Positions 4,058-33,742 of a stretch of 38,482 nt of DNA are shown here, piece by piece (the stretch's first letter is position 1; each line of letters begins with the position of its first letter). Under the pieces are notes generated by a model. The model worked only from the letters and a program-made list of their open reading frames with translations, ran no database searches and had not been told where the DNA came from. The DNA is from Bacillota bacterium. Lineage in GTDB: Bacteria > Bacillota_I > Bacilli_A > Acholeplasmatales > Acholeplasmataceae. A program made the position numbers and the translations under genes. The stretch lies in assembly GCA_018817915.1 (NCBI GenBank), contig JAHISX010000069.1, positions 1 through 38,482 on the forward strand. The letters are read 5' to 3'.

Positions 4058-5626
4058 TTATGAATTTTCATGAGTCTTATTACAATATGGACAAATTATT
4101 TCGCCATTTTGGTTAATCTTAGTAATATTTCTAAAATACATTAAGGATTCTATTTGTTTTTCATAATACCATTCATCATCACTCTTGAAACTAGATTTGT
4201 TAATCACATGTTTTTTCAGATGTGTATTATCGGTATAGAAAAAGGGCTTATTTGTTTCTTTACATACACTTTCTTTGATTTGAGTCATACAATCATTACA
4301 CTGATAAAAATCGTGATATGGATCTTTTTGGAGTTTTCCTCCGCAGAAAGGACAAACATCTCGTTTTTTATCTGAATAAACCATGCCCTTGAGAATGATT
4401 TGCTGTATCCTTCTAAATGAGTCAATATCTTCCATACTGATATACACATCATTTCTTTCAAGATAATCTCCATCAAATTGATTAACGACAATAACTTCAT
4501 CCAAACCATAATCTTTTTTATAACTATTAAGTGTTTTAATATTATAGACAGTGTTAGCTATCATGATTCTATATGTTTTATCTTTTGTGAAATATAGCAA
4601 GATCTCTTTTTTATTATTGTTAAAGATATCCAATTTCCAACCTTTAAATGAAAATTTAATATCAAGAGAACTTAAATCTATTTTGTATTGAGGATCTATT
4701 TCAAAATTGAAATGGCCAACAGCAAAAATAGTGAGCATTTGCACATAAGTCAGATAATTTCTTGCCATTAACTCATAATCAACAATCTCTTTTTTCTCTT
4801 CAATTTTATTTTGACTACCTAGTAAGTACTTGTATGTTTTATAAACTTGATGGTAGTCTTTTTGCATTAGAAAAATATTGGTCTTTTTAAGTCTTAAATT
4901 TTTATTTCTATTGATATTTTTTTGATAGACCGGTTTATAAAGCCTTGGATTAATAGCTTGACTGATGAATGTTAATTCGTTTAACATTTCTCTTGATAAA
5001 TTAAAATATTGACTAAAGTCTCTAATGTACCCCGTATGTAGCTTTCCTAAAGCTAAAAAGTAATTCACATGATTGATTTTTTCAAGTAAATTAAACCTCA
5101 TAATATCACTAGCATACAGCAAATTATTTAATGTTCTTCGATTTTTCTTAATCATTGAAAGAACTTCATCAACAAAATTGCAGAAAATGATATTTTCATA
5201 AATGCTATACTCATCTTCATAGATTCTCGTTAACAATTTTCTAGGCTTTACACCTTTATTTGTTATGTTAGACACAAACTGTCCGTGATTAGCTAAATGA
5301 AGTAAAGTATTTTGATTAATGATACGTGCATTTTCGACAGGTAAAACATCATCTGTGTCTTTTAAAACGATAATTGGTTTGCTAAATATTCTTTTTATTG
5401 CTGGTGTTGATTTTTTGATATGATGAATTGTCTTTTCTAATTTTTCAAAATCAAAATCAGGCTCAATCGAAAACAGTGTCATATCATGTACGACATAGTA
5501 GTCAAACTCAATATAAGTTACAACTCGATGTTTTTTAAGAAAATCTTGAATGCCTTCTAAAAGCGAAGCAAAGCGATTATATTCTTCTACATTTAATTTA
5601 TTTACATCTTTATTCATATTATTCAT
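4058..5626 (-). CDS. McrC/DUF2357-like protein with C-terminal zinc ribbons
   Basis: A protein of about 522 residues and probable partner of the AAA+ gene just upstream. With numbering from the longest frame (GTG at 5653), residues 110-230 have the character of DUF2357, the domain of McrC-type proteins: a conserved N/H-G region, then PRKLLTRIYEDEYSIYEN where DUF2357 carries an E-N pair. A tail with CPFCGGK (434-440) and CNDC (452-455) forms a zinc ribbon, and CPYC (521-524) is a further knuckle. I see no convincing PD-(D/E)xK nuclease motif; the stretch around 331-372 could be a decayed one. No start has a good Shine-Dalgarno. ATG 5626 or ATG 5617 overlap or abut the upstream stop at 5619-5621, which suggests translational coupling. 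The McrC relation is an inference from fold-like pattern and position. Confidence 0.55.
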   Translation of the reverse strand: MNNMNKDVNKLNVEEYNRFASLLEGIQDFLKKHRVVTYIEFDYYVVHDMTLFSIEPDFDFEKLEKTIHHIKKSTPAIKRIFSKPIIVLKDTDDVLPVENARIINQNTLLHLANHGQFVSNITNKGVKPRKLLTRIYEDEYSIYENIIFCNFVDEVLSMIKKNRRTLNNLLYASDIMRFNLLEKINHVNYFLALGKLHTGYIRDFSQYFNLSREMLNELTFISQAINPRLYKPVYQKNINRNKNLRLKKTNIFLMQKDYHQVYKTYKYLLGSQNKIEEKKEIVDYELMARNYLTYVQMLTIFAVGHFNFEIDPQYKIDLSSLDIKFSFKGWKLDIFNNNKKEILLYFTKDKTYRIMIANTVYNIKTLNSYKKDYGLDEVIVVNQFDGDYLERNDVYISMEDIDSFRRIQQIILKGMVYSDKKRDVCPFCGGKLQKDPYHDFYQCNDCMTQIKESVCKETNKPFFYTDNTHLKKHVINKSSFKSDDEWYYEKQIESLMYFRNITKINQNGEIICPYCNKTHENS

Positions 5627-8306
5627 TATCGAGATGTTTGATAAATTCAGCACATAGTTTCAAATTTAATTTTTCAAATTCCATCTCAAGTTTTTCTTTA
5701 TCATCAATCGTTTTTACTTCTAGTTTAGCAACCACTTTACTTAATAGAATCTTTTCAATTGCTTCGCTTTCTACATCTTCATCTGAAAAACACTCTTTAT
5801 AGATATTAACGAAATCTTCAATTTGTTTTAAAATACGATTTCCGAATGAAATATTGTATGGAGCAAGTAATACTTCTACATTTTTAATAAGATCACTATT
5901 TTCAGCATCAAAATCACCTTTTTGTTTTGCTTGATCAAACAATTGATTCATCGTCTGATAATCATAATATTGTTTTGAAATTGGATTTGAATAGTTGCGT
6001 ACTTTAGGAGCACGCTTTGTAAAGTTTATGGTATGTGCGCGGTCATAAACTTTATCCGATATGACAAATGTTGATTCGTCACGATTCGCTGTACCTATAA
6101 ACCATACATTGGGTGGTACTTTAAGTGTGTTTCCATAATCAAGCGCTAGATAATCGACTTCTTCTTCATCTTCTTTTCTGGTCAATTTAATATTGATCAA
6201 TTTAATTTCTCTATGATTTTCTTCGTTTTCCATCAGAGATAGAAAATCTGAGAAATAATATTCAATTCTAGATAGATTCATTTCATCGAGCAAAATAAAA
6301 GTAAATATCTCTTGATTAAGTGCTGCTTTATAAAGTGCTAGTGTGAATTTTTTAGGTGTGTAGTTCATTGAAAACTCATTATAGTATCCTAATAACTCGT
6401 TTTTATCTTTCCAAGAAGATTCAACTTCAATAATCTCACAATTACCAAATATAGCTTCTGAAAAAATCTTTGGCAAACTCGTTTTACCAGTTCCTGACAT
6501 CCCTTGAAGAATTGAGAGTTTACTTGCTCCAAGGCCTGCAACAAAAGTAGCAATATCTTCTGGTGTATATGATAAATGAAGTCTTGAATTTCTTGCGTAT
6601 TCTACAACAAAATTAACGAGTTCATTTAAAGTAGCTTCATTCACCCTATATGCTCCCCTATTTTCAAGATCTTGGCTAAACAAATCTTTTCTTGAATCTA
6701 GATCAGTAAATGCATAACATGGGTCAAAAGGATGGTAATTCAGATCATCTATACCATTTGATGATAAATCACTACTTGAAGCTGATGAATGATTCAAAGG
6801 CAATAAGCTATTATCCAATAAACTCATTTCATCTCTCTCAAATCCTTTTCTGATAAAAATCAATACTAATACAACAACAGAGGCAAGCAATGCATAGATG
6901 GCATCGGTACTGATGGTATAATCAAAATTTAAGGCATCCGGTAAATTAATCCCATAAAAATCAAAAACATCTAAAATGATAGCTTGATTAATTTCTTTAG
7001 CAATTTGGAAGTAATATCCCGAAATAGAAATGATAAACACGAAGAAGACATTCACTGATGTTGCTAATTTAACTACTGAACTAAATTGTTTATATTTAGA
7101 AAGGTAACTTGTTATGCTGATAACCAAACAAAGACCTACAGAAATAAGCATGACCACTAGAACAAAAGCAACAATACGATAACCAGGATCTAAACTAGCA
7201 TAGTCTCTTAAAATATTAAGACCAGTTAAACTGACGGTATTTGTATAAGAACCTGATATAATATCATATTTAATTATTGGAAGAAGCAACATCAATACTG
7301 AAATAGCAGTCATCAATATAACATAAAAGAGTGGTTCTATTTTGGAATATTTAATTTTATTTACTCCATTAGATATATGAGTAAACGCATAATATTTACC
7401 TTGAAAAACGGCGAAAATGAAAATGACTACAACCATCAATAGCATTGGAATAAATGAGATTGTTTGGGTGATATTACCACCGAGTGTGTAATAAATATCC
7501 AAACCTAATCCCATAAGGAAAAATAGTAATGTTGCTACGAAAGTATACGTAATGAGTGTTTTTGATTTATTAATAAATGTTTCTTTATCAAAAAAATAAT
7601 TTGAGAGACATTGTGCAAAGTATAGGAAAAGACCCAAAAAGATAGAAAAATTAACAAGAAAATAAATAATAACATCAATTTTAGTGTCTCCAAAAAGCAA
7701 GACATTAATAATAATGGCATAATATGTAGATCCTGATTCAACAAATGAATACAATGGAATAAAAAATGTTGTCAAAAAGACGGCAATTGAAGCGATATCA
7801 ATAAATAAGACACTTAGTGGAATCTTTGTTTGACTTAATTGAGTTTCTTTTTCATCATTTTTAAGACCAATTTCTCGGTTGAGTGCTTTTCTTCTGAAAA
7901 TAAGCAAGACATATGTACCAGCGATTAAAACGATGTTCAAAATGATTAGAATAATAGCAAATATTGACAAATAGCTACTTATTGATTGAAAAGCAATCAA
8001 TACAGTTTCAAATCCAAGAGAATATGTGACTGCTACCATGAATCCCCAATTATTCTTTTTAAAAAAACTAAACCCAGATAAGAGTAAAGGAAGAATTGAA
8101 ATATAAAATAGAATCTTAAAGATGAAAGCAAAGATATTGACATATTCGCCATCAGCTAGATTATTTGCGAGATACCAAAAATTATCACCTTGGTATGTTG
8201 ACGTTAGTTTTAAAGACATAATCCATAGGTTCATCAAGAACACAATGAACAGTACACCAATAACTAATGTTCCTATAAACCATGATTTTTTGAACAAATT
8301 TTTCAT
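5619..8306 (-). CDS. polytopic membrane protein fused to a McrB-like AAA+ ATPase
   Basis: 895 residues. The first 490 hold about 12-13 hydrophobic helices (for example 9-30, 58-78, 112-136, 165-187, 211-233, 250-270, 283-301, 325-345, 376-400, 415-433, 467-485). After a Ser-rich linker (about 495-520) comes a cytoplasmic AAA+ module: Walker A GMSGTGKTS at 602-610, Walker B FILLDEMN at 670-677 followed by the EYYFSDFLS stretch typical of McrB-like AAA_5 proteins, sensor-1 GTANRDEST at 738-746, and a YDR arginine near 754-756. McrB itself uses GTP through an MNxxD motif; here the residues are MNLSR, so nucleotide choice is open. The start is supported by AAAGGGGAT upstream. It is joined by overlap to the DUF2357-like gene. 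The pair looks like a McrBC-type ATPase/effector anchored in the membrane. Confidence 0.75.
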   Translation of the reverse strand: MKNLFKKSWFIGTLVIGVLFIVFLMNLWIMSLKLTSTYQGDNFWYLANNLADGEYVNIFAFIFKILFYISILPLLLSGFSFFKKNNWGFMVAVTYSLGFETVLIAFQSISSYLSIFAIILIILNIVLIAGTYVLLIFRRKALNREIGLKNDEKETQLSQTKIPLSVLFIDIASIAVFLTTFFIPLYSFVESGSTYYAIIINVLLFGDTKIDVIIYFLVNFSIFLGLFLYFAQCLSNYFFDKETFINKSKTLITYTFVATLLFFLMGLGLDIYYTLGGNITQTISFIPMLLMVVVIFIFAVFQGKYYAFTHISNGVNKIKYSKIEPLFYVILMTAISVLMLLLPIIKYDIISGSYTNTVSLTGLNILRDYASLDPGYRIVAFVLVVMLISVGLCLVISITSYLSKYKQFSSVVKLATSVNVFFVFIISISGYYFQIAKEINQAIILDVFDFYGINLPDALNFDYTISTDAIYALLASVVVLVLIFIRKGFERDEMSLLDNSLLPLNHSSASSSDLSSNGIDDLNYHPFDPCYAFTDLDSRKDLFSQDLENRGAYRVNEATLNELVNFVVEYARNSRLHLSYTPEDIATFVAGLGASKLSILQGMSGTGKTSLPKIFSEAIFGNCEIIEVESSWKDKNELLGYYNEFSMNYTPKKFTLALYKAALNQEIFTFILLDEMNLSRIEYYFSDFLSLMENEENHREIKLINIKLTRKEDEEEVDYLALDYGNTLKVPPNVWFIGTANRDESTFVISDKVYDRAHTINFTKRAPKVRNYSNPISKQYYDYQTMNQLFDQAKQKGDFDAENSDLIKNVEVLLAPYNISFGNRILKQIEDFVNIYKECFSDEDVESEAIEKILLSKVVAKLEVKTIDDKEKLEMEFEKLNLKLCAEFIKHLDNE

Positions 8307-9276: not shown

Positions 9277-10803
9277 TTAAACAAAGATGCCATTGATGTA
9301 ATCATCTTCAAACATAATTCCATACATCCAATTAGAACGTTCATGAAGATATATTTCTAGATAAGATACTTGACCTAAAAAAGTATTTTCGTTCATAACC
9401 TCTTCTGGATTTGGCCATACATATATATCCATAATACTCCATTTATCAAAGTTACGGTTTGCTTCAGTCAAAATAGACTGGGATAGAACAGGTAACATGT
9501 CATAAACTTCAGGTAACATGTCATAAAATACATCATTAAATCTTTCTCTAAACTGAATTCTAATTTCTGGAACATCCATCATTAATTTAAATAATCTATT
9601 TTTATAATCTTTCATGCCATAAAAATTTTCTGGTCCATAATCGATATAATCAGCATTTCCTATCGCAAAATCAAAATCCCAAAGTGGCCCTGGTTTTAAA
9701 GGTCCACCGGCTTCTTTATAATAGAAAACACTTGAAAATCCTACATCAACATTTTTAGTAAGTTCATGAATGATGAAAAAATCAATCCATCCATCAACAT
9801 CTAAGAGTTCTTCATATCCAGTCTTATCACGAAGTGCATTTTCAACAGTTACCATATAATCTGTTAAATAATTAGCGTGGACTTGTGAATATTCTAAATC
9901 ATCGCTATCTGGTTCTTTGATTGCATATGGATATCCATATACAAGAAACCACGTGCTATTTAATTCTGAAAACTCATCAAACAATCTCATATCGAGCTCA
10001 AAAAGATATCCGGTATCAACAATTCCAGCAATCGATTCAACATCAAGCTTGTTCTTATGGAATTCTACCTGTTCTGTCAAGACATATAAACCCATATAAA
10101 CTGTATTGATATATAATTCAACAAATCTTGTTTCTAGAGAATAACTCAAGTGATCCATCAAGCTACTTAATTTATGAACAACAGTGTTTCTCATCAATGA
10201 TTTATCTGCATATTCAGCCAAAAGAACATAGTTCTTAGCTTTAGGCATACCAAATATCGACGTATTTTCATCAAATCTTAATTTAAATGGCTTTTTAGGG
10301 AATGAGAACCAAGTTGAATTTCCTCTGCCTCTGATTTTAGCAGCATCTGTATCAACTTCTGTTACTGCAGTTCCATTCTTTGTCATAATTGCTTGAACGG
10401 ATGCTTGAGTATATTCATCTTTAGTTACATTTTCTACTGAATAGGGTAAATCAATATAAAGTTTATATCCATTATATCCTGAATCGTCAGCAATCAAATG
10501 AATAGTTTTTGTAAATTCTCCTGCATTATTACCTCTTCGAATGATATAATTCAAAGTTATATCTTGATCGTAAAAAGGAGATTCATAGATGAATTCTTCA
10601 GTAAAACTTAATCCATTGTATTCATATGTCACATCAACATCATCAAAAATAGGCAAATCAAAATTAGAGTTGATCGTATCAGGTATCAAATCATTAATTT
10701 CATTCGATCTAGTTTCAAATAACGTTTCATAATCAATATTCTCACAACCGATTAAACCGATGCTCATGAAAATGATCATCATGAATATTATTGTTTTTTT
10801 CAT
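9277..10803 (-). CDS. CotH-like secreted protein kinase, lipoprotein
   Basis: 508 residues. A lipoprotein signal ends in LIGC with Cys 20, so it is probably anchored outside the cell. Residues 155-400 carry the CotH kinase signatures: IRGRGNSTW (157-165) with following Lys 170/171 as the nucleotide-binding start, ETRFVELYIN (224-233) and MGLYVLTEQVE (237-247), LTKNVDV (348-354) at the catalytic position, and GPLWDFDFAIGN (372-383) as the metal-binding Asp motif. CotH kinases phosphorylate Ser residues of spore-coat proteins in Bacillus; this organism type does not sporulate, so the target is unknown. The N-terminal 130 residues look like a beta-rich Ig-like region. The start has AGGAG closely upstream. 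It heads the run of five close genes and lies only about 20 bases after a terminator hairpin. Confidence 0.85.
   Translation of the reverse strand: MKKTIIFMMIIFMSIGLIGCENIDYETLFETRSNEINDLIPDTINSNFDLPIFDDVDVTYEYNGLSFTEEFIYESPFYDQDITLNYIIRRGNNAGEFTKTIHLIADDSGYNGYKLYIDLPYSVENVTKDEYTQASVQAIMTKNGTAVTEVDTDAAKIRGRGNSTWFSFPKKPFKLRFDENTSIFGMPKAKNYVLLAEYADKSLMRNTVVHKLSSLMDHLSYSLETRFVELYINTVYMGLYVLTEQVEFHKNKLDVESIAGIVDTGYLFELDMRLFDEFSELNSTWFLVYGYPYAIKEPDSDDLEYSQVHANYLTDYMVTVENALRDKTGYEELLDVDGWIDFFIIHELTKNVDVGFSSVFYYKEAGGPLKPGPLWDFDFAIGNADYIDYGPENFYGMKDYKNRLFKLMMDVPEIRIQFRERFNDVFYDMLPEVYDMLPVLSQSILTEANRNFDKWSIMDIYVWPNPEEVMNENTFLGQVSYLEIYLHERSNWMYGIMFEDDYINGIFV
9490..9527 (-). repeat. tandem 21-base duplication inside the CotH-like gene
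   Basis: Seventeen identical bases (9490-9506 and 9511-9527) recur with a 21-base period and translate as YDMLPEVYDMLPV. It keeps the frame, so it is a seven-codon duplication in a variable helical part of the protein. Confidence 0.8.
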
Positions 10804-26033: not shown

Positions 26034-26477
26034 CTACTTTTCTATGATATGTACTTCAAATAGTGCTTTGATATCCTTATGTAGTGAAACTGTAGCAGTA
26101 TATATACCTATCGAATTAATTTCACTTGAGATTTCAATCTTTTTGCGGTCGATTAAAATGTGGTGCTCTTTTTCAAACTCTTCAACGATCTGTTTGGTTG
26201 TTACACTTCCAAAGAGTTTTCCATCTTGACCAATTTGAATGCCAAGGGTTACTTTCTTGTTATCAATTTCAGCCTTGAGTTTCTTCATTAAATCAATATG
26301 TCTTTGAGTTTCTTCAAATGCTTCTTCTTTTGCTCTATTGAGTTCAGCAAGGTTTTCATCTGATGCAGTAACAGCTTTCTTTTGTGTGACTAAAAATTGG
26401 CCATAACCACCAGCAACTTCTATGACGTCATCTTTTTTACCTTTGCCTTTAACATCTTCTAATAAAATAACTTTCAC
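26034..26477 (-). CDS. rplI: possible separately translated ribosomal protein L9
   Basis: An internal GTG at 26477 lies at the exact start of the L9 homology (family start M-K-V-I-x-L-x-D-V-x-G-x-G-K-K) and is preceded, eight to ten bases away, by GGAGGTGGAG, the best Shine-Dalgarno in the neighbourhood (26483-26492). Those bases encode the Gly linker of the fusion. The product would be a 147-residue normal-length L9. No other L9 gene is seen here. Internal initiation is an inference; the fused reading frame itself is open. Confidence 0.6.
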   Translation of the reverse strand: MKVILLEDVKGKGKKDDVIEVAGGYGQFLVTQKKAVTASDENLAELNRAKEEAFEETQRHIDLMKKLKAEIDNKKVTLGIQIGQDGKLFGSVTTKQIVEEFEKEHHILIDRKKIEISSEINSIGIYTATVSLHKDIKALFEVHIIEK

Positions 26478-28469
26478 GGGCTCTCCACCTCCACCATATT
26501 CTAAATCGATATAATTCTTTAATTGATCGTACACTTCGTGTACAGATGAGTTTTTAATTTGTGCAGCAGCACTATTTAAATGGCCTCCGCCACCTAATGC
26601 TTCCATCAGAATCTGAACATTAATATTTTGATAGGATCTTGCTGAAACACCAATCATATTTGAGTTCATACGTGCAATCATGAAAGCAGCATCTACGCCA
26701 TTGATTTGTAGTGCAGCATCAGCTACTTGTGCTAATAAGATACGATCTTCATAAATATCTGATGTGATCACAAATGCAAATCGTTCTAAATAAATTTCAA
26801 CATTGCCTAATAAGTTGTTGATTTCGAGTGTTCTCATCAAATCGCGACGAAGCCATAATTTGACGCTTGTCACATCTGCACCTAAATCTTTAAGCTTAGC
26901 AGCAACTTCAAAAGTTCTTGCTCCAGTTCTATAACTGAAATTGTTGGTATCAACAACTAAACCACCATACATAATGGTTGCTTCCAAAGGTGATATCTTG
27001 ATTTCTTCTTCCATATTATAAAAATTGAGTAACTCCATCATCAATTCAATTGTTGATGAAGCATATGGCTCAATAAAACTAAATATTGCATTAAAGCTTT
27101 CTTCACTGGCACGATGATGGTCAATGACGATCAGCTTGTTCACTTTATCTAAAATATCAGGATTCATCACCATTTTAGGTGATTGCGTATCAACAACAAT
27201 TAACAAACTATCAGGGTTTATTAATTTGATGATTGACTCCGAATCTGTACAATTTTCGACTAATGCCGGTAAGTCTTCTTTAACTAGTTCGAAAATCTTT
27301 TGAACCGTACTATCTAATTTAGGCACATCAACAACTAAGTGAGCTGGTTTCTTACTTGCTTTAGCCATATGATAAACAGCTATCATTGAACCAAAAGCAT
27401 CTAGATCAGCTTGATTATGACCCATGATGATAATGTTTGATGATTTTTCAATGAAGTCTCTAATCGTTTGGGCATTAATTCTAACACCTACACGAGAATT
27501 TTTAGCTGAAGCATCATTTTTAGCTCCAAAATATGCAATCTTTTGATCTTGTATATTAACAACGACTTGATCTCCACCACGCTTTTCAGCAAGTTCAATC
27601 GCATTTTGAGCATAGATGCCAAGTTCTTCATAATTGACATCCCATGAGGCAACGCCCATGGAAACACTCACTCGAACCTGGTTTTGTACAGAAATCAAGC
27701 GAATCTTATCTAAAATATCAAATTTATCTTGAATCATTAGATTCAATTGCTTACGAGATAATACGACAACAAGTCGTTCATCTGAATATGGTTTTAAGAA
27801 TCCATTGTATTTGTTTGCCCAGTCGGCAATCGCTGCTAAATATTCACCTTTTAAACTTGACTGTTCTGATACATCCATCGATCCTAGTGCTTCATCCAAA
27901 TTATCTAAATAGATGATACCTAAAGCAGGAATTTGTTCTGTATATCTTTGCTTAACAGTTTCACGATCGGTCACATTAAATAAGTAGAAGAATTTATATT
28001 CTGCACGATATGTGACATCGTAACTTTCATTCTTTACTTGAATGATGAATTGAATTTTATTATTCATTGCTGCTAAATGAAGTTGCGGATGAACATCTTT
28101 TAAATCTTTACCGGTGATTTTAGGATCAAATATAGTTTTAGCATGTGGGTTTGCCCACTTGATTTCAAAATCTTCATCTAAGGCAATAATCCCTATAGGT
28201 AATTCATTAAAAACTTCATCACCTACTTGATTGACATGATAGGATAACTTAGTCCACATGGATAATCTATTTTGCAATGTTTTTACTTTTTGTCTATTTT
28301 GAAAGTTAAATGTAACATATACCGACACAAAAATAAGGACAAAACTGCCCAGTAATAAAATAAATGAAGTGAGTTGTGTGGCTGACTCAAATTGAAAATA
28401 TGGAATATATAAATAAATACTTGTTCCAAAAACAATCAAAGTGAGTATTAAGAATAGCCATCGTTTCAT
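26034..28469 (-). CDS. gdpP: GdpP c-di-AMP phosphodiesterase fused to ribosomal protein L9
   Basis: 811 residues. Two membrane helices (about 4-25 and 35-57), a PAS-like region (about 90-170), a degenerate GGDEF domain (about 180-305), then a DHH/DHHA1 phosphodiesterase: GHNQADLDAFG (351-361), a metal Asp near 427, DHH (450-452) and GGGGHLNSAAAQ of DHHA1. GdpP homologues normally end shortly after; here a GGGGE linker leads straight into a complete L9 (last 147 residues, starting VKVILLEDVKGKGKKDD). The GTG start at 28478 is less likely than ATG 28469, which has AGGTGG upstream. GdpP degrades c-di-AMP and helps control K+ and osmotic balance. Confidence 0.93.
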   Translation of the reverse strand: MKRWLFLILTLIVFGTSIYLYIPYFQFESATQLTSFILLLGSFVLIFVSVYVTFNFQNRQKVKTLQNRLSMWTKLSYHVNQVGDEVFNELPIGIIALDEDFEIKWANPHAKTIFDPKITGKDLKDVHPQLHLAAMNNKIQFIIQVKNESYDVTYRAEYKFFYLFNVTDRETVKQRYTEQIPALGIIYLDNLDEALGSMDVSEQSSLKGEYLAAIADWANKYNGFLKPYSDERLVVVLSRKQLNLMIQDKFDILDKIRLISVQNQVRVSVSMGVASWDVNYEELGIYAQNAIELAEKRGGDQVVVNIQDQKIAYFGAKNDASAKNSRVGVRINAQTIRDFIEKSSNIIIMGHNQADLDAFGSMIAVYHMAKASKKPAHLVVDVPKLDSTVQKIFELVKEDLPALVENCTDSESIIKLINPDSLLIVVDTQSPKMVMNPDILDKVNKLIVIDHHRASEESFNAIFSFIEPYASSTIELMMELLNFYNMEEEIKISPLEATIMYGGLVVDTNNFSYRTGARTFEVAAKLKDLGADVTSVKLWLRRDLMRTLEINNLLGNVEIYLERFAFVITSDIYEDRILLAQVADAALQINGVDAAFMIARMNSNMIGVSARSYQNINVQILMEALGGGGHLNSAAAQIKNSSVHEVYDQLKNYIDLEYGGGGEPVKVILLEDVKGKGKKDDVIEVAGGYGQFLVTQKKAVTASDENLAELNRAKEEAFEETQRHIDLMKKLKAEIDNKKVTLGIQIGQDGKLFGSVTTKQIVEEFEKEHHILIDRKKIEISSEINSIGIYTATVSLHKDIKALFEVHIIEK

Positions 28470-28491
28470 GCGAACCACCTACTTTAAGCAT

Positions 28492-30115: not shown

Positions 30116-31188
30116 GACAGGATGATGGTCACAGTAACTTCTACGAATGTTGTACCATTAAATCTCATCACTTTGATGATGTGTGAGTCACCAAATTCTG
30201 CACCTTCAAGTTGTGTACCAATGTCAGCAACTGATGTAATTGGTGTTCCATTCATTTCAATAATAAGATCATTTTCTTCTAAAACTAGATATGCATTTCT
30301 TGTTAAATCAAATCCAACAACAACAACTCCAACTGGATTTTCAGGAAGTAATGAAGCATCATTTTCTTGAAGGAATACACTTACTTCTTGAACTGATATA
30401 CCTAGTCTAGGTTTTCTTACAACAACTTCATAATCTGAATCTTGAAAGCCACGTATAATTGGTGCAATCTTATTAATGTTCAAGGAATAATTCAATCCTT
30501 CTGCAGATATGACACCATCAGTAGTAGAAATTGAAGCAACCTTGGCTACGTTAACACCAATCAGTTCACCATTCAGATTGAATAGTGCACCTCCACTATT
30601 TCCAGGATTTAATTCTGCATCATGCATCAATCCTAATCCTGTTACTCCGTTGTATGGATAAGAAGCCATACTTACAATACCTTGTGTTACATAATTGAAT
30701 TTATCTAAATCTTGAGGTGTACCAATTGCATAGACATCTTGACCAACTAGAATTTCAGTGATCGTATTATCATCAATTGGTGATACGTGTTGTACACGTA
30801 AAACTTCATCGGTTTCGATACGAACAACAGCTATATCATAAGTTGAATTCCCTGTATAATCTACAACAGCAATATCATCAATTTCTCCACCAAAGTTAAT
30901 ATACATTTCTCCACCATCTTCAACCACATGGTAGTTTGTCATGATATAGTAACGAGTTAAATCTGTTCCCACAATCTCTTCACTCTTATAGATTGTACCA
31001 GAACCATGTCCTGTTTCAGTTTTGACAACAACAACAGATGGCATGACTTCTGCTAACATATCCATTCTTAATTGCTCATAGGCAATCGGTGATGTATATG
31101 GGACTTCTGCTCTAAGATCTAAAGAGCAACCCACTAAGATTAGAACTGAAAAAACAACAACAAGCATACTTAATAATTTCTTCTTCAT
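30112..31188 (-). CDS. HtrA/DegP-like serine protease, lipoprotein
   Basis: 358 residues. A lipoprotein signal ends LVGC with Cys 21, rather than the membrane helix usual in Firmicutes HtrA. The trypsin-like triad is H87 (NYHVV), D118 (STYDIAVV) and S198 (PGNSGGALF). A single PDZ domain follows (about 253-352, RLGISVQEV...GVVVVGFD...LEENDLIIEMNG). It probably acts outside the membrane in quality control of secreted proteins. A Shine-Dalgarno, GGAGGT, lies inside the end of tatD, and it is joined to both neighbours by ATGA overlaps. Confidence 0.9.
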   Translation of the reverse strand: MKKKLLSMLVVVFSVLILVGCSLDLRAEVPYTSPIAYEQLRMDMLAEVMPSVVVVKTETGHGSGTIYKSEEIVGTDLTRYYIMTNYHVVEDGGEMYINFGGEIDDIAVVDYTGNSTYDIAVVRIETDEVLRVQHVSPIDDNTITEILVGQDVYAIGTPQDLDKFNYVTQGIVSMASYPYNGVTGLGLMHDAELNPGNSGGALFNLNGELIGVNVAKVASISTTDGVISAEGLNYSLNINKIAPIIRGFQDSDYEVVVRKPRLGISVQEVSVFLQENDASLLPENPVGVVVVGFDLTRNAYLVLEENDLIIEMNGTPITSVADIGTQLEGAEFGDSHIIKVMRFNGTTFVEVTVTIILS

Positions 31189-31952
31189 GATGTAATACCT
31201 CCTAATTTAAATAAATGATACGCATTTTCTGTTGTTTGATTCATGACTTCTTCAACAGATATTTTTTTGATCTCAGCTATTTTCTCAACAACATACTTGG
31301 TATATGCTGGTTCGTTTCTCTTTCCCCTAAATGGCATTGGTGCTAAATAAGGACTATCCGTTTCCACTAAAATATGCTTTAAATCAATATTTTCAACAAT
31401 CTCTACTAAATCTGCTGCTTTCTTGAATGTAATTGGGCCGTCAATTCCAATATAAAATCCTAACTCAACTGCTCTTTTCGCATCTAAAAGATTCGAACTG
31501 AAACAATGAAAAACACCTGTAACTAGTCCTTTATACGGCAATAAGCATTGATAAGCTTCCTCAAATGAACTTCTTGTGTGAATGACTAATGGCAATTTAT
31601 ATTTTTTTGCTAATTCGATTTGTTCGAGAAAGATTGTCTTTTGCAAATTATAATTGTCTTGTCTCCAATGCAAATCGATCCCACATTCCCCAATAGCAAC
31701 GACTTTCTCGTTTGTGATCAGTGACTCTAAATGATCTGTTGTTTCATGATCAACATAACCTGGATGAACACCAACAGTAGCAAATAACATCTCATGTGTT
31801 TGTGCTAACTTGATTGCTATTTCATTTGTTGCCTTATCCATCCCAATGACAATAATTTGATCTACATGATTTGTCCTTGCACTTTCCAACACTTCTATCA
31901 TATCACTTTGATACTCTTCTGTATTTAAATGTGCATGTGTATCAACTATCAT
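31185..31952 (-). CDS. tatD: TatD-family metal-dependent hydrolase (DNase)
   Basis: 255 residues, a TIM-barrel metallo-hydrolase with 3'-5' DNase activity in studied members. The metal ligands are visible: DTHAHLN (4-10), GECGIDLHW (about 91-99), IHTRSSFEEA, GVFHCFSS and VETDSPYLAP (about 202-211). First of the tatD-htrA-pncC cluster. AGGTGATC lies upstream, with an extended -10-like TGATAAAAT further up (near 31975-31985). Confidence 0.95.
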   Translation of the reverse strand: MIVDTHAHLNTEEYQSDMIEVLESARTNHVDQIIVIGMDKATNEIAIKLAQTHEMLFATVGVHPGYVDHETTDHLESLITNEKVVAIGECGIDLHWRQDNYNLQKTIFLEQIELAKKYKLPLVIHTRSSFEEAYQCLLPYKGLVTGVFHCFSSNLLDAKRAVELGFYIGIDGPITFKKAADLVEIVENIDLKHILVETDSPYLAPMPFRGKRNEPAYTKYVVEKIAEIKKISVEEVMNQTTENAYHLFKLGGITS

Positions 31953-32066: not shown

Positions 32067-32090
32067 CATGCCAGGAGCTAACCTGACATG
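32067..32090 (-). terminator. terminator after the 40-residue repeat gene
   Basis: Nine-base stem CATGTCAGG/CCTGGCATG with one G-U pair and a six-base loop, then six T on the minus strand. Confidence 0.88.
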
Positions 32091-32123: not shown

Positions 32124-32246
32124 TTATTTCTTAGGAGCTGGTTTGATTGGTTGTTGAACTTTTTGAGCTGGTTTAGCTTGTGCTTGGACCTTTTGTGCAG
32201 GCTTAGCTTGTACTTGCGCTTTTGGAGCTTGTTTGAATTGTGCCAT
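32124..32246 (-). CDS. 40-residue basic repeat peptide (Lys/Ala/Gln/Pro)
   Basis: A short gene: AGAGAGGTGA lies six bases before the ATG, and the frame runs 40 codons to TAA, with its own terminator just after and a promoter upstream. The product begins MAQFKQAPKAQVQ and contains two copies of QAKPAQKVQ (residues 13-21 and 23-31) and an IKPAPKK end; it has about ten Lys and no acidic residue. Such low-complexity basic tails occur in nucleic-acid-binding proteins and ribosomal protein extensions, so nucleic-acid binding is a guess. I recognise no family. Confidence 0.7.
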   Translation of the reverse strand: MAQFKQAPKAQVQAKPAQKVQAQAKPAQKVQQPIKPAPKK

Positions 32247-32425
32247 GGATATTCACCTCTCTTTCTGATTTTGATATTCTAGTAAAATCATCTGTAGTGG
32301 TGACTATCTATTATGCGCTAAATGCTCCAAAAATTAGATCTAGCTCGTAAGGTTTTCATCATCGACCAGCATGATTTATGCTGTTCATTATTGGGGATAT
32401 ACACTTCACAATCCCTCTCACTTTT
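32247..32425 (-). other. long leader of the repeat-peptide gene, possible structured RNA
   Basis: About 175 bases between the promoter and the start codon hold no other gene. Two hairpins are visible: GGGAT/ATCCC (arms 32394-32398 and 32411-32415) and CAGCAT/ATGCTG with a five-base loop (32367-32383). I see no T-box, tRNA, SRP RNA or known riboswitch motif. It may be a regulatory leader or a small RNA. Confidence 0.4.
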
Positions 32426-32453
32426 ATCATACGCTTTTCCTAATGATTTGTAA
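32426..32453 (-). promoter_or_regulatory. promoter for the repeat-peptide gene
   Basis: -35 TTACAA (32448-32453), 16-base spacer, -10 TATGAT (32426-32431); TTGTTA at 32451-32456 with 19 bases is an alternative -35. It lies after the tuf terminator, so the peptide gene is a separate unit. Confidence 0.55.
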
Positions 32454-32517
32454 CAATTTTGCATCATTTTGTTAAAAAAAAATTAAGACTTCATTCAAAC
32501 AAAAAAAGCAACAAAAA

Positions 32518-32537
32518 AGAGGCCTAAATAGACCTCT
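32518..32537 (-). terminator. terminator of the str operon after tuf
   Basis: Seven-base stem AGAGGTC/GGCCTCT (one G-U pair), loop of six, then a T-run on the minus strand, about 20 bases after the tuf stop. Confidence 0.88.
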
Positions 32538-32557: not shown

Positions 32558-33742
32558 CTATTCAAGAATCTTAGTTACAGATCCTGAACCAACAGTACGT
32601 CCGCCTTCACGAATTGAGAACTTAGTAGTTTCTTCAATAGCGATTGGGTGAATCAATTCAACGATCATGACAGTGTTATCACCAGGCATAACCATTTCTG
32701 TACCTTCTTGAAGTGTAATAACTCCAGTTACGTCAGTTGTACGGAAATAGAATTGAGGGCGATAGTTTGAGAAAAATGCTGTATGACGTCCGCCTTCTTC
32801 TTTTGAAAGTACGTAAACTTGAGCTTCAAATCTGAAGTGTGGGTTAACTGATTTTGGTTTAGCTAATACTTGACCACGTTCTACTTGATCACGGTTAATA
32901 CCACGAAGAAGTGCACCGATGTTGTCACCAGCTTGAGCGAAATCTAATAATTTTCTAAACATTTCAACGCCTGTTACAACTGTTTGTTTAGTATCAGTGA
33001 TACCAACGATTTCAACAGGATCGCCGACTTTAATTTGTCCACGGTCTACACGACCAGTAGCAACTGTTCCACGACCAGTAATTGTGAAGACATCTTCGAC
33101 TGGCATTAAGAATGGTTTGTCAGTAGCGCGTACTGGATCATCAATATATGAATCAACTGCATCCATTAATTCTTGTACGCCAGCTTCCCATTTAGGATCG
33201 CCGTTTAATGCTAATAATGCAGATCCACGGATAACAGGAATGTCATCTCCTGGGAAATCATATTCTGATAATAATTCACGAATTTCCATTTCAACTAGGT
33301 CTAATAATTCTTCATCATCAACCATGTCGCATTTGTTCATGAATACAACAAGCTTAGGTACACCAACCTGGCGAGCAAGAAGAATGTGTTCTCTTGTCTG
33401 AGGCATAGGACCATCTGCTGCAGAAACAACTAGGATACCACCGTCCATTTGAGCAGCACCTGTAATCATGTTCTTGACATAGTCAGCATGACCTGGGCAG
33501 TCAACGTGTGCATAGTGACGCTTTAGTGTTTCATATTCAACGTGTGCAGTATTAATAGTGATACCGCGTGCTTTTTCTTCTGGTGCACTGTCAATAGATG
33601 CATAATCTTTAATTGTTGCTAACCCTTGCTTTGCGAAAACTGTAGTGATCGCAGCAGTAAGTGTAGTCTTACCATGGTCAACGTGGCCGATTGTACCAAC
33701 ATTAACATGTGGTTTTGTTCTTTCAAATTTTTGTTTTGCCAT
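32558..33742 (-). CDS. tuf: elongation factor Tu
   Basis: 394 residues, delivers aminoacyl-tRNA to the ribosome. G1 GHVDHGKT (19-26), G2 [14 protein letters not shown]3 [13 protein letters not shown]4 NKCDMVDD, then domains II and III with the usual [11 protein letters not shown] and C-terminal [16 protein letters not shown] precedes the ATG. Last gene of the str operon, with its own promoter in addition. Confidence 0.99.

Follow-up and report, generated by a model that had tools for sequence, protein, structure and literature searches.

A conserved structured leader and the small lysine-, proline- and alanine-rich peptide gene that it may control in Acholeplasma-like bacteria

INTRODUCTION

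Ribosomal-protein autogenous leaders are cis elements, grouped in Rfam classes, that are bound by the gene's own product. The leader described here resembles them as a cis element tied to one kind of gene, whose own product is proposed as the binder. However, it has no match in Rfam, its product matches no known protein family, and the unit contains a single gene. Metabolite riboswitches usually control several different genes of a pathway, and some have a platform that sequesters the Shine-Dalgarno (SD) sequence. Competing helices around an anti-SD are likewise predicted here, but again there is no Rfam match, and significant matches to the leader precede one gene only. For the peptide, the nearest likeness lies in the KPAAK-type Lys/Ala/Pro tails that occur in AlgP, PhaF and histone H1. 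Composition and charge are similar, whereas the present peptide is free-standing, 15 to 43 amino acids (aa) long and without Pro-Pro.

The cspA-type leader, a cold-shock thermosensor, shares with this locus a structured leader, a short gene, a nucleic-acid-binding product and a structure that sets ribosome access (the last two putative here). In contrast, the peptide described here carries no cold-shock domain detectable with Pfam, the folding models are flat with temperature, and separate csp genes are present. One study reports that CspA, in addition, promotes the translation of its own message (PMC9947658). The uORFC-13-1 motif of Acholeplasma was reported, in the excerpted text, exclusively upstream of aroF (PMC8632094). 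As described there, it is likewise a conserved short-ORF/RNA element from Acholeplasma, but the unit reported here is closed by a terminator of its own and is not followed by any fixed gene. A search of literature excerpts returned nothing on the small-peptide gene or its leader, although this does not prove that none exists. Structured leaders that gate the SD of small genes are a known type of system, but the leader and peptide described here appear to be new in the collections searched.

RESULTS AND DISCUSSION

The small-peptide gene in the window

The window analyzed, a stretch of 38,482 nucleotides, is one entire contig of a 2.13-Mb genome in 89 contigs. The 13 closest named records by tatD are metagenome-assembled or uncultured and are mostly labeled Acholeplasmataceae or Tenericutes, with two labeled Bacillota and one Phytoplasma. 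A sequence-only reading of this DNA had pointed to an overlooked 40-codon gene between tatD and tuf, with its own promoter, SD and terminator and a doubled QAKPAQKVQ. The ORF was confirmed and lies on the minus strand, which that reading had left unstated (Table 1). It encodes MAQFKQAPKAQVQAKPAQKVQAQAKPAQKVQQPIKPAPKK, with nine Lys, no Asp or Glu, and QAKPAQKVQ at residues 13-21 and 23-31. The rest of the described layout is also present, with tuf (32558-33742) and tatD (31185-31952; Pfam TatD, 2.1e-79) as neighbors, all on the minus strand, and comparison among relatives bears out a genuine small gene.

Terminator-like sites are enriched in the region (3 versus 0.3 expected). The promoter of the window copy stands less firmly, as the motif alone is at chance level there (3 versus 3.1 expected). 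However, of 18 members examined, 17 (including the window copy) have a -10-like hexamer (loose pattern) 147 to 190 nt before the ATG, and the promoter therefore gains some weight. A 43-aa mechanical ORF antisense to the gene (window 32151..32282, plus strand) shows no sign of use.

Table 1. Features of the small-peptide unit in the window, with the reading direction in brackets where given
Feature	Position	Strand	Basis
ORF, 40 aa, Lys/Ala/Gln/Pro-rich basic peptide	32124..32246 (32246..32124)	-	profile searches, comparison across members
Shine-Dalgarno AGAGAGGTGAA	32252..32262 (32262..32252)	-	AGGTGA invariant in 23/23 aligned leaders
Intrinsic terminator of the small-peptide gene	32067..32090 (32090..32067)	-	terminator scan, fold
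Promoter GTTACA (32454-32449), 17-nt spacer, TATGAT (32431-32426)	32426..32454	-	motif scan
tuf terminator upstream of the unit, stem-loop and T run; cuts the unit off from the tuf transcript	32518..32537	-	
Conserved structured leader; transcription start inferred	32247..32419	-	R1 matches 32413..32247, 90 bits (window copy among the 18 of R1)
Hairpin P1 (AGGGAT/ATCCCC)	32393..32416	-	fold only, pairs not counted
Hairpin P2, CAGCAT-AAATC-ATGCTG	32367..32383	-	fold, pair counts
Strand B AAATCATG, partner of B'; forms the loop and 3' side of P2	32370..32377	-	pair counts
Anti-SD UCACC, complementary to GGUGA in the SD	32299..32303	-	fold/duplex
Strand B' GATGATTT, partner of B; also in SD-side hairpin (TGATTTT/AAAATCA)	32285..32292	-	pair counts
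AAAATCA, inner-stem partner of B' in the SD-closing hairpin	32266..32272	-	fold

Family members and their detection

As a single query the window peptide gave few matches, and a DNA search together with a 12-row peptide profile (A1) was used to extend the family. These located the gene in 18 of the 88 genomes of the window's family, 12 in the profile and 6 new. Among the latter, G030, G041, G045 and G078 matched A1 at E values of 2e-9 to 3e-8 and G028 at 0.005, while G042 (E 2.98) was taken in on the strength of its leader and terminator. Across the window's order (160 genomes), which was covered by peptide profile and by leader search in some of its families, 17 genomes matched the profile at E<=1.

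A leader model (R1) was built from a plain MAFFT alignment (A3) of the 18 leaders, which match it by construction. In the window's family it matched 21 of 88 genomes at E 1.4e-8 or better, with the next match at E 0.011. Three of these genomes (G027, G040, G029) were new, each with the leader directly followed by a KPA-type ORF that A1 had missed. A 16-row peptide profile (A4) applied to 395 class genomes added one genome of another family, G335. In the order of that genome, R1 matched G335 (4.5e-12) and G294 (5e-4), that is, 2 of 90 genomes; the G294 peptide, MAELKKAPAKPAGKK, has 15 residues behind the same leader type. Applied to a sample of 395 genomes of the class, R1 yielded seven matches at E<=0.01, all within the known members. 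The family comprises 23 members with 22 distinct peptides, 21 in the 88 genomes of the window's family and 2 in the 90 of another order. Beyond the 18 leaders of the model, five matches at E<=0.01 were new and all five precede a KPA-type ORF; peptide searches had missed four of them (G027, G029 and G040 with A1, G294 with A4). The leader can reveal a gene that, being so short and of such low complexity, escapes the peptide searches used (4 of 23 members missed).

The R1 genome searches used filters able to lose weak matches. Under stricter filters G033, G035 and G037 (same genus), G022, G025, G026 and G079 yielded no member, which does not prove absence; in G037 the contig stops about 1.3 kb after fusA. 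The R1 match in G017 (L065; E 0.011) was taken as noise, the frame behind it reading as transposase-like, and other inspected matches (E 0.2 to 0.9) lay on unrelated sequence; L003 (E 0.155) is not a member. Among 21 named loci around tatD the leader was found in two (L074, L081), and no new member was gained.

Genomic context

Flanking genes vary between groups of members. The tuf/tatD setting is found in 3 of the 23; ten members lie upstream of a putative NuoE-like gene, with differing upstream genes and, in G034, another ORF intervening; other flanks include a putative dihydrofolate-reductase-like gene and a peptidase-U32-like gene (labels by reading alone). No neighboring gene is constant across all 23 members. 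A terminator hairpin follows the ORF in 21 of 23 members by fold and in the remaining two (G043, G294) by eye. Because the flanking genes differ between groups, we consider promoter, leader, ORF and terminator to be the conserved unit. An operon with tuf or tatD is not favored, given terminators on both sides and the few members in that setting. Likewise, a leader peptide (uORF) serving a downstream gene was rejected, as the gene has its own terminator and no constant gene downstream.

In G034 (L034) the family member is preceded, at a distance of about 470 nt, by a second Lys/Pro/Ala-rich ORF of 31 aa, MPKNYTPKAPAQGLKQAKTIPTSKPAKPVKK. This ORF comes with an SD-like sequence of its own and possibly a terminator, but its upstream region is different.

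The leader and its helices

The main feature of the locus, absent from the sequence-only reading, is the conserved structured leader. It is about 150 to 190 nt long in the members (about 170 nt in the window copy) and exceeds the ORF in length. Rfam gave no match above gathering score in the window or in 20 loci of other members (all but G036 and G294); snoRNA, miRNA and sRNA rows at low score were below the gathering scores, at chance level, and were set aside. P1, P2 and the SD-closing hairpin recur in the folds, with single-sequence energy z scores of +0.18 to -5.1 in 18 leaders, mostly modest against shuffles.

Pairing between strands B and B' was the sole helix returned by RNAalifold on the plain MAFFT alignment of 18 leaders, in which it is 87.5% paired with 12 two-sided cells (0/500 shuffles). 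Over all 23 leaders 85.9% of pairs are standard and 14 cells have changed on both sides, and either figure was reached by 0 of 500 shuffles. Versions slid along the 23 leaders were 35 to 51% paired. In a set of 51x51 offset placements (those with more than 100 letter pairs) the exact B-B' register was best, the next ranks printed being shifts along the same helix. Two of five measures did not exceed the shuffles, namely pairs changed on both sides (220/500) and pair types (494/500). In the window copy B is complementary to B' at seven of eight positions; by aligned columns, pairing is poor in G042 (3/8 pairs) and weak in G027, G040 and G080 (5/8). P2 is 77.9% paired (0/500 shuffles), and the SD-side helix 84.8% (4/500), with changes that are mostly one-sided.

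An EF-G tree of 28 genomes (G030 and G035 gave no match at the cut-off), the backbone branches of which are weak (49-53), has variants of AUGGUG/CACCAU in the outgroup and early branches. Pair 72-166 is C-G rather than G-C in G000/G039, G036 and G034, pair 73-165 is A-U rather than G-C in several members, and pair 69-169 is C-G rather than A-U in G031. Such a distribution suggests roughly three or more independent compensatory changes, with weak backbone support. Judged against shuffle nulls, which are not tree-aware, both P2 and the long-range B-B' helix show compensatory changes.

The duplex energy between the P2 region and the pre-SD region was -14.8 kcal/mol for own pairs versus -11.3 kcal/mol for swapped sequences in 18 leaders. 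Taken singly, 11 of the 18 were at p<=0.1 and 7 above, with the window copy at p 0.24. For the pre-SD/SD duplex, 10 of 18 were at p<=0.05 and 8 above (window copy, 0.03). Direct pairing of P2 with the SD was rejected, as it gave no signal in 17 of 18 leaders, the exception being G042.

Model of SD accessibility

In the proposed resting (off) state, B' and the nearby anti-SD would close the SD into a hairpin. In the window copy this would involve two pairings, one between UCACC (32303..32299) and the GGUGA of the SD, the other between AAAATCA (32272..32266) and B' (32292..32285). In the on state the P2 loop and 3' strand, B, would pair with B', the hairpin would open, and the ribosome could bind; instead of a full exchange, a loop pseudoknot could form and leave P2 intact. 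When B-B' was forced, modeled mean SD accessibility rose from 0.21 to 0.46 over the 23 leaders, compared with 0.27 for control stems, and was higher in 21 of 23. G034 moved in the opposite direction, G032 was unchanged, and control stems did equally well or better in G042 and G029. Shuffled leaders with SD access at or below the native value made up a share of 0.05 or less in 5 of 23 leaders only. In nested folding B-B' cost a mean of 7.5 kcal/mol and had a mean probability of 0.09 at 37°C. As B-B' is costly and rare in such folds, the open state would depend on a ligand, a protein or a pseudoknot, or else on folding during transcription.

The weakest step of the model is the signal, which we propose to be the product itself, with the polycationic peptide binding its own leader. 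Such autogenous control is favored because no significant leader match precedes any other gene, unlike the usual metabolite riboswitches. It is an argument from exclusivity, based on five matches beyond the model's own 18 sequences. Overall, we assign a probability of roughly 0.6 to a single-gene unit in which a translational on/off leader serves a presumed disordered polycation with putative nucleic-acid or ribosome binding and an autogenous signal. The broader proposal of a new RNA-switch class in Acholeplasma-like bacteria, whose leader would control a disordered polycation of about 30 residues that binds its own leader and tunes ribosomes or RNA, is put forward tentatively and is itself improbable as a whole. 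The locus contributes a family of small proteins and a candidate class of regulatory RNA, with no match in Pfam, NCBIfam or Rfam, from a group of mostly uncultured bacteria.

The foremost competing explanation is a riboswitch or thermometer, in which a metabolite, ion or temperature would set the SD hairpin and the peptide would be the effector of the response. Strands able to pair in two ways, as B' can with B or the SD side, are typical of such elements, and the combination of long leader and short gene is reminiscent of cspA. However, all five new leader matches precede the same peptide, with none at E<=0.01 before another gene, and Rfam offers no match. Furthermore, nested models, which leave out pseudoknots, do not respond to temperature, mean SD accessibility staying at 0.20 to 0.22 from 5 to 45°C. 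We regard this explanation as possible but on the unlikely side. A role as stand-in for a missing CspA was ruled out, as 77 of the 88 genomes of the family, among them every one of the 21 bearers, carry cold-shock-domain genes.

The peptide and its coding evidence

Peptides of the family range from 15 to 43 residues and contain more or fewer KPAPKAPVQ-like units, the repeat-number variation that the sequence-only reading had suggested seeking in relatives. Its remark that there is no acidic residue is true of the window copy but not of the family, where 12 Asp/Glu occur in 23 peptides, 11 of them in the N-terminal MAE/MAD/MPE/MKD/MEN part. Over the 23 members Lys makes up 25%, Pro 23%, Ala 20%, Gln 11% and Val 9% of residues, Arg and Cys are missing altogether, and aromatics are absent from 19 peptides. 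Net charge is +4 to +10. The consensus is MAxKKPAPK...QP..KPAPKAPVQPxKPAGKK, and six columns of the 16-row alignment are invariant, the start Met and five Lys. Pro-Pro was not observed in the 23 peptides, compared with a mean of 37.8 (minimum 23) in 2000 shuffle rounds; as the members are related, this count is a description and not an independent test. Its absence would fit a protein made for translation without polyproline stalls. A Pro-Pro-free Lys/Ala/Pro design of 15 to 43 residues offers a simple test case for the minimal sequence of a functional disordered polycation.

No protein-family match was found in Pfam, NCBIfam, PHROGs or the PDB at the cut-offs used (16 of 23 members scanned; a profile versus the PDB); one weak PHROG match (E 0.059) was seen in 1 of the 16. 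Judged by composition, the peptide is presumably a disordered polycation. Its charge fits RNA, DNA or ribosome binding, and it probably binds nucleic acid or ribosomes. The same Lys/Ala/Pro make-up, positive charge, lack of Arg and Cys and scarcity of aromatics would also suit a nucleoid protein of the histone-H1 type, similar to what is found in the KPAAK tails of AlgP or PhaF. This identity is doubtful, as there is no sequence relation to Pfam, NCBIfam or PDB entries at the cut-offs used, and 15 to 43 residues leave no space for a folded DNA-binding domain.

Conservation of the frame in relatives, the lack of which the sequence-only reading had counted towards refutation, was found throughout the 23 members. 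Five non-overlapping close pairs have 24 differences in total, 14 of which are synonymous versus about 24% expected (p 3e-4; p 0.009 if 33% is expected instead). Two further close pairs that share genomes with these, kept outside the sum, have 4/11 and 4/10 synonymous differences. These patterns point to a real, protein-coding gene with a conserved frame under purifying selection.

Twelve members (e.g., L059, L062, L064, L027) have an extra hairpin in the 3' untranslated region, after the stop codon and before the terminator (CTGATTGT..GCAATCAGAC, with variants), which has changes on both sides in the 12 aligned members and is missing from the window copy and others.

This hairpin, together with a leader longer than the ORF and the mere 15 residues encoded in G294, could be taken to mean that the RNA is the main product, either as a small RNA that contains an ORF or as an RNA with two functions, and the peptide secondary. 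Such an arrangement is quite improbable, as the peptide keeps its composition, SD and synonymous excess, and the hairpin is not shared by all members. Short Lys/Pro-rich antimicrobial or signal peptides exist, but export of this peptide to act as a proline-rich antimicrobial or signal is very unlikely, with no signal sequence apparent on reading the 23 printed peptides and no gene at a constant place beside the members. Low-complexity repeats can give long open frames and the promoter alone is at chance, but a chance ORF in an intergenic region is ruled out for practical purposes by the constant order of leader, SD and ORF across 23 members, 5 of which were recovered with a leader model that did not include them.

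Other features of the window

Three further loci were noted, all on the minus strand. An 814-aa ORF (26034..28478) is a GdpP-type cyclic-di-AMP phosphodiesterase (PAS, GGDEF, DHH, DHHA1) fused in frame to ribosomal protein bL9, both L9 domains of which match. Adjacent ORFs of 531 and 895 aa (4058..5653 and 5619..8306) have no Pfam match at E<=0.001; by reading, an AAA-type ATPase part comes after membrane segments in the 895-aa ORF, and the pair is possibly McrBC-like. A CotH kinase-family protein (9277..10803; Pfam CotH, 2.2e-42) has, by reading, a lipoprotein-like N-terminal start.
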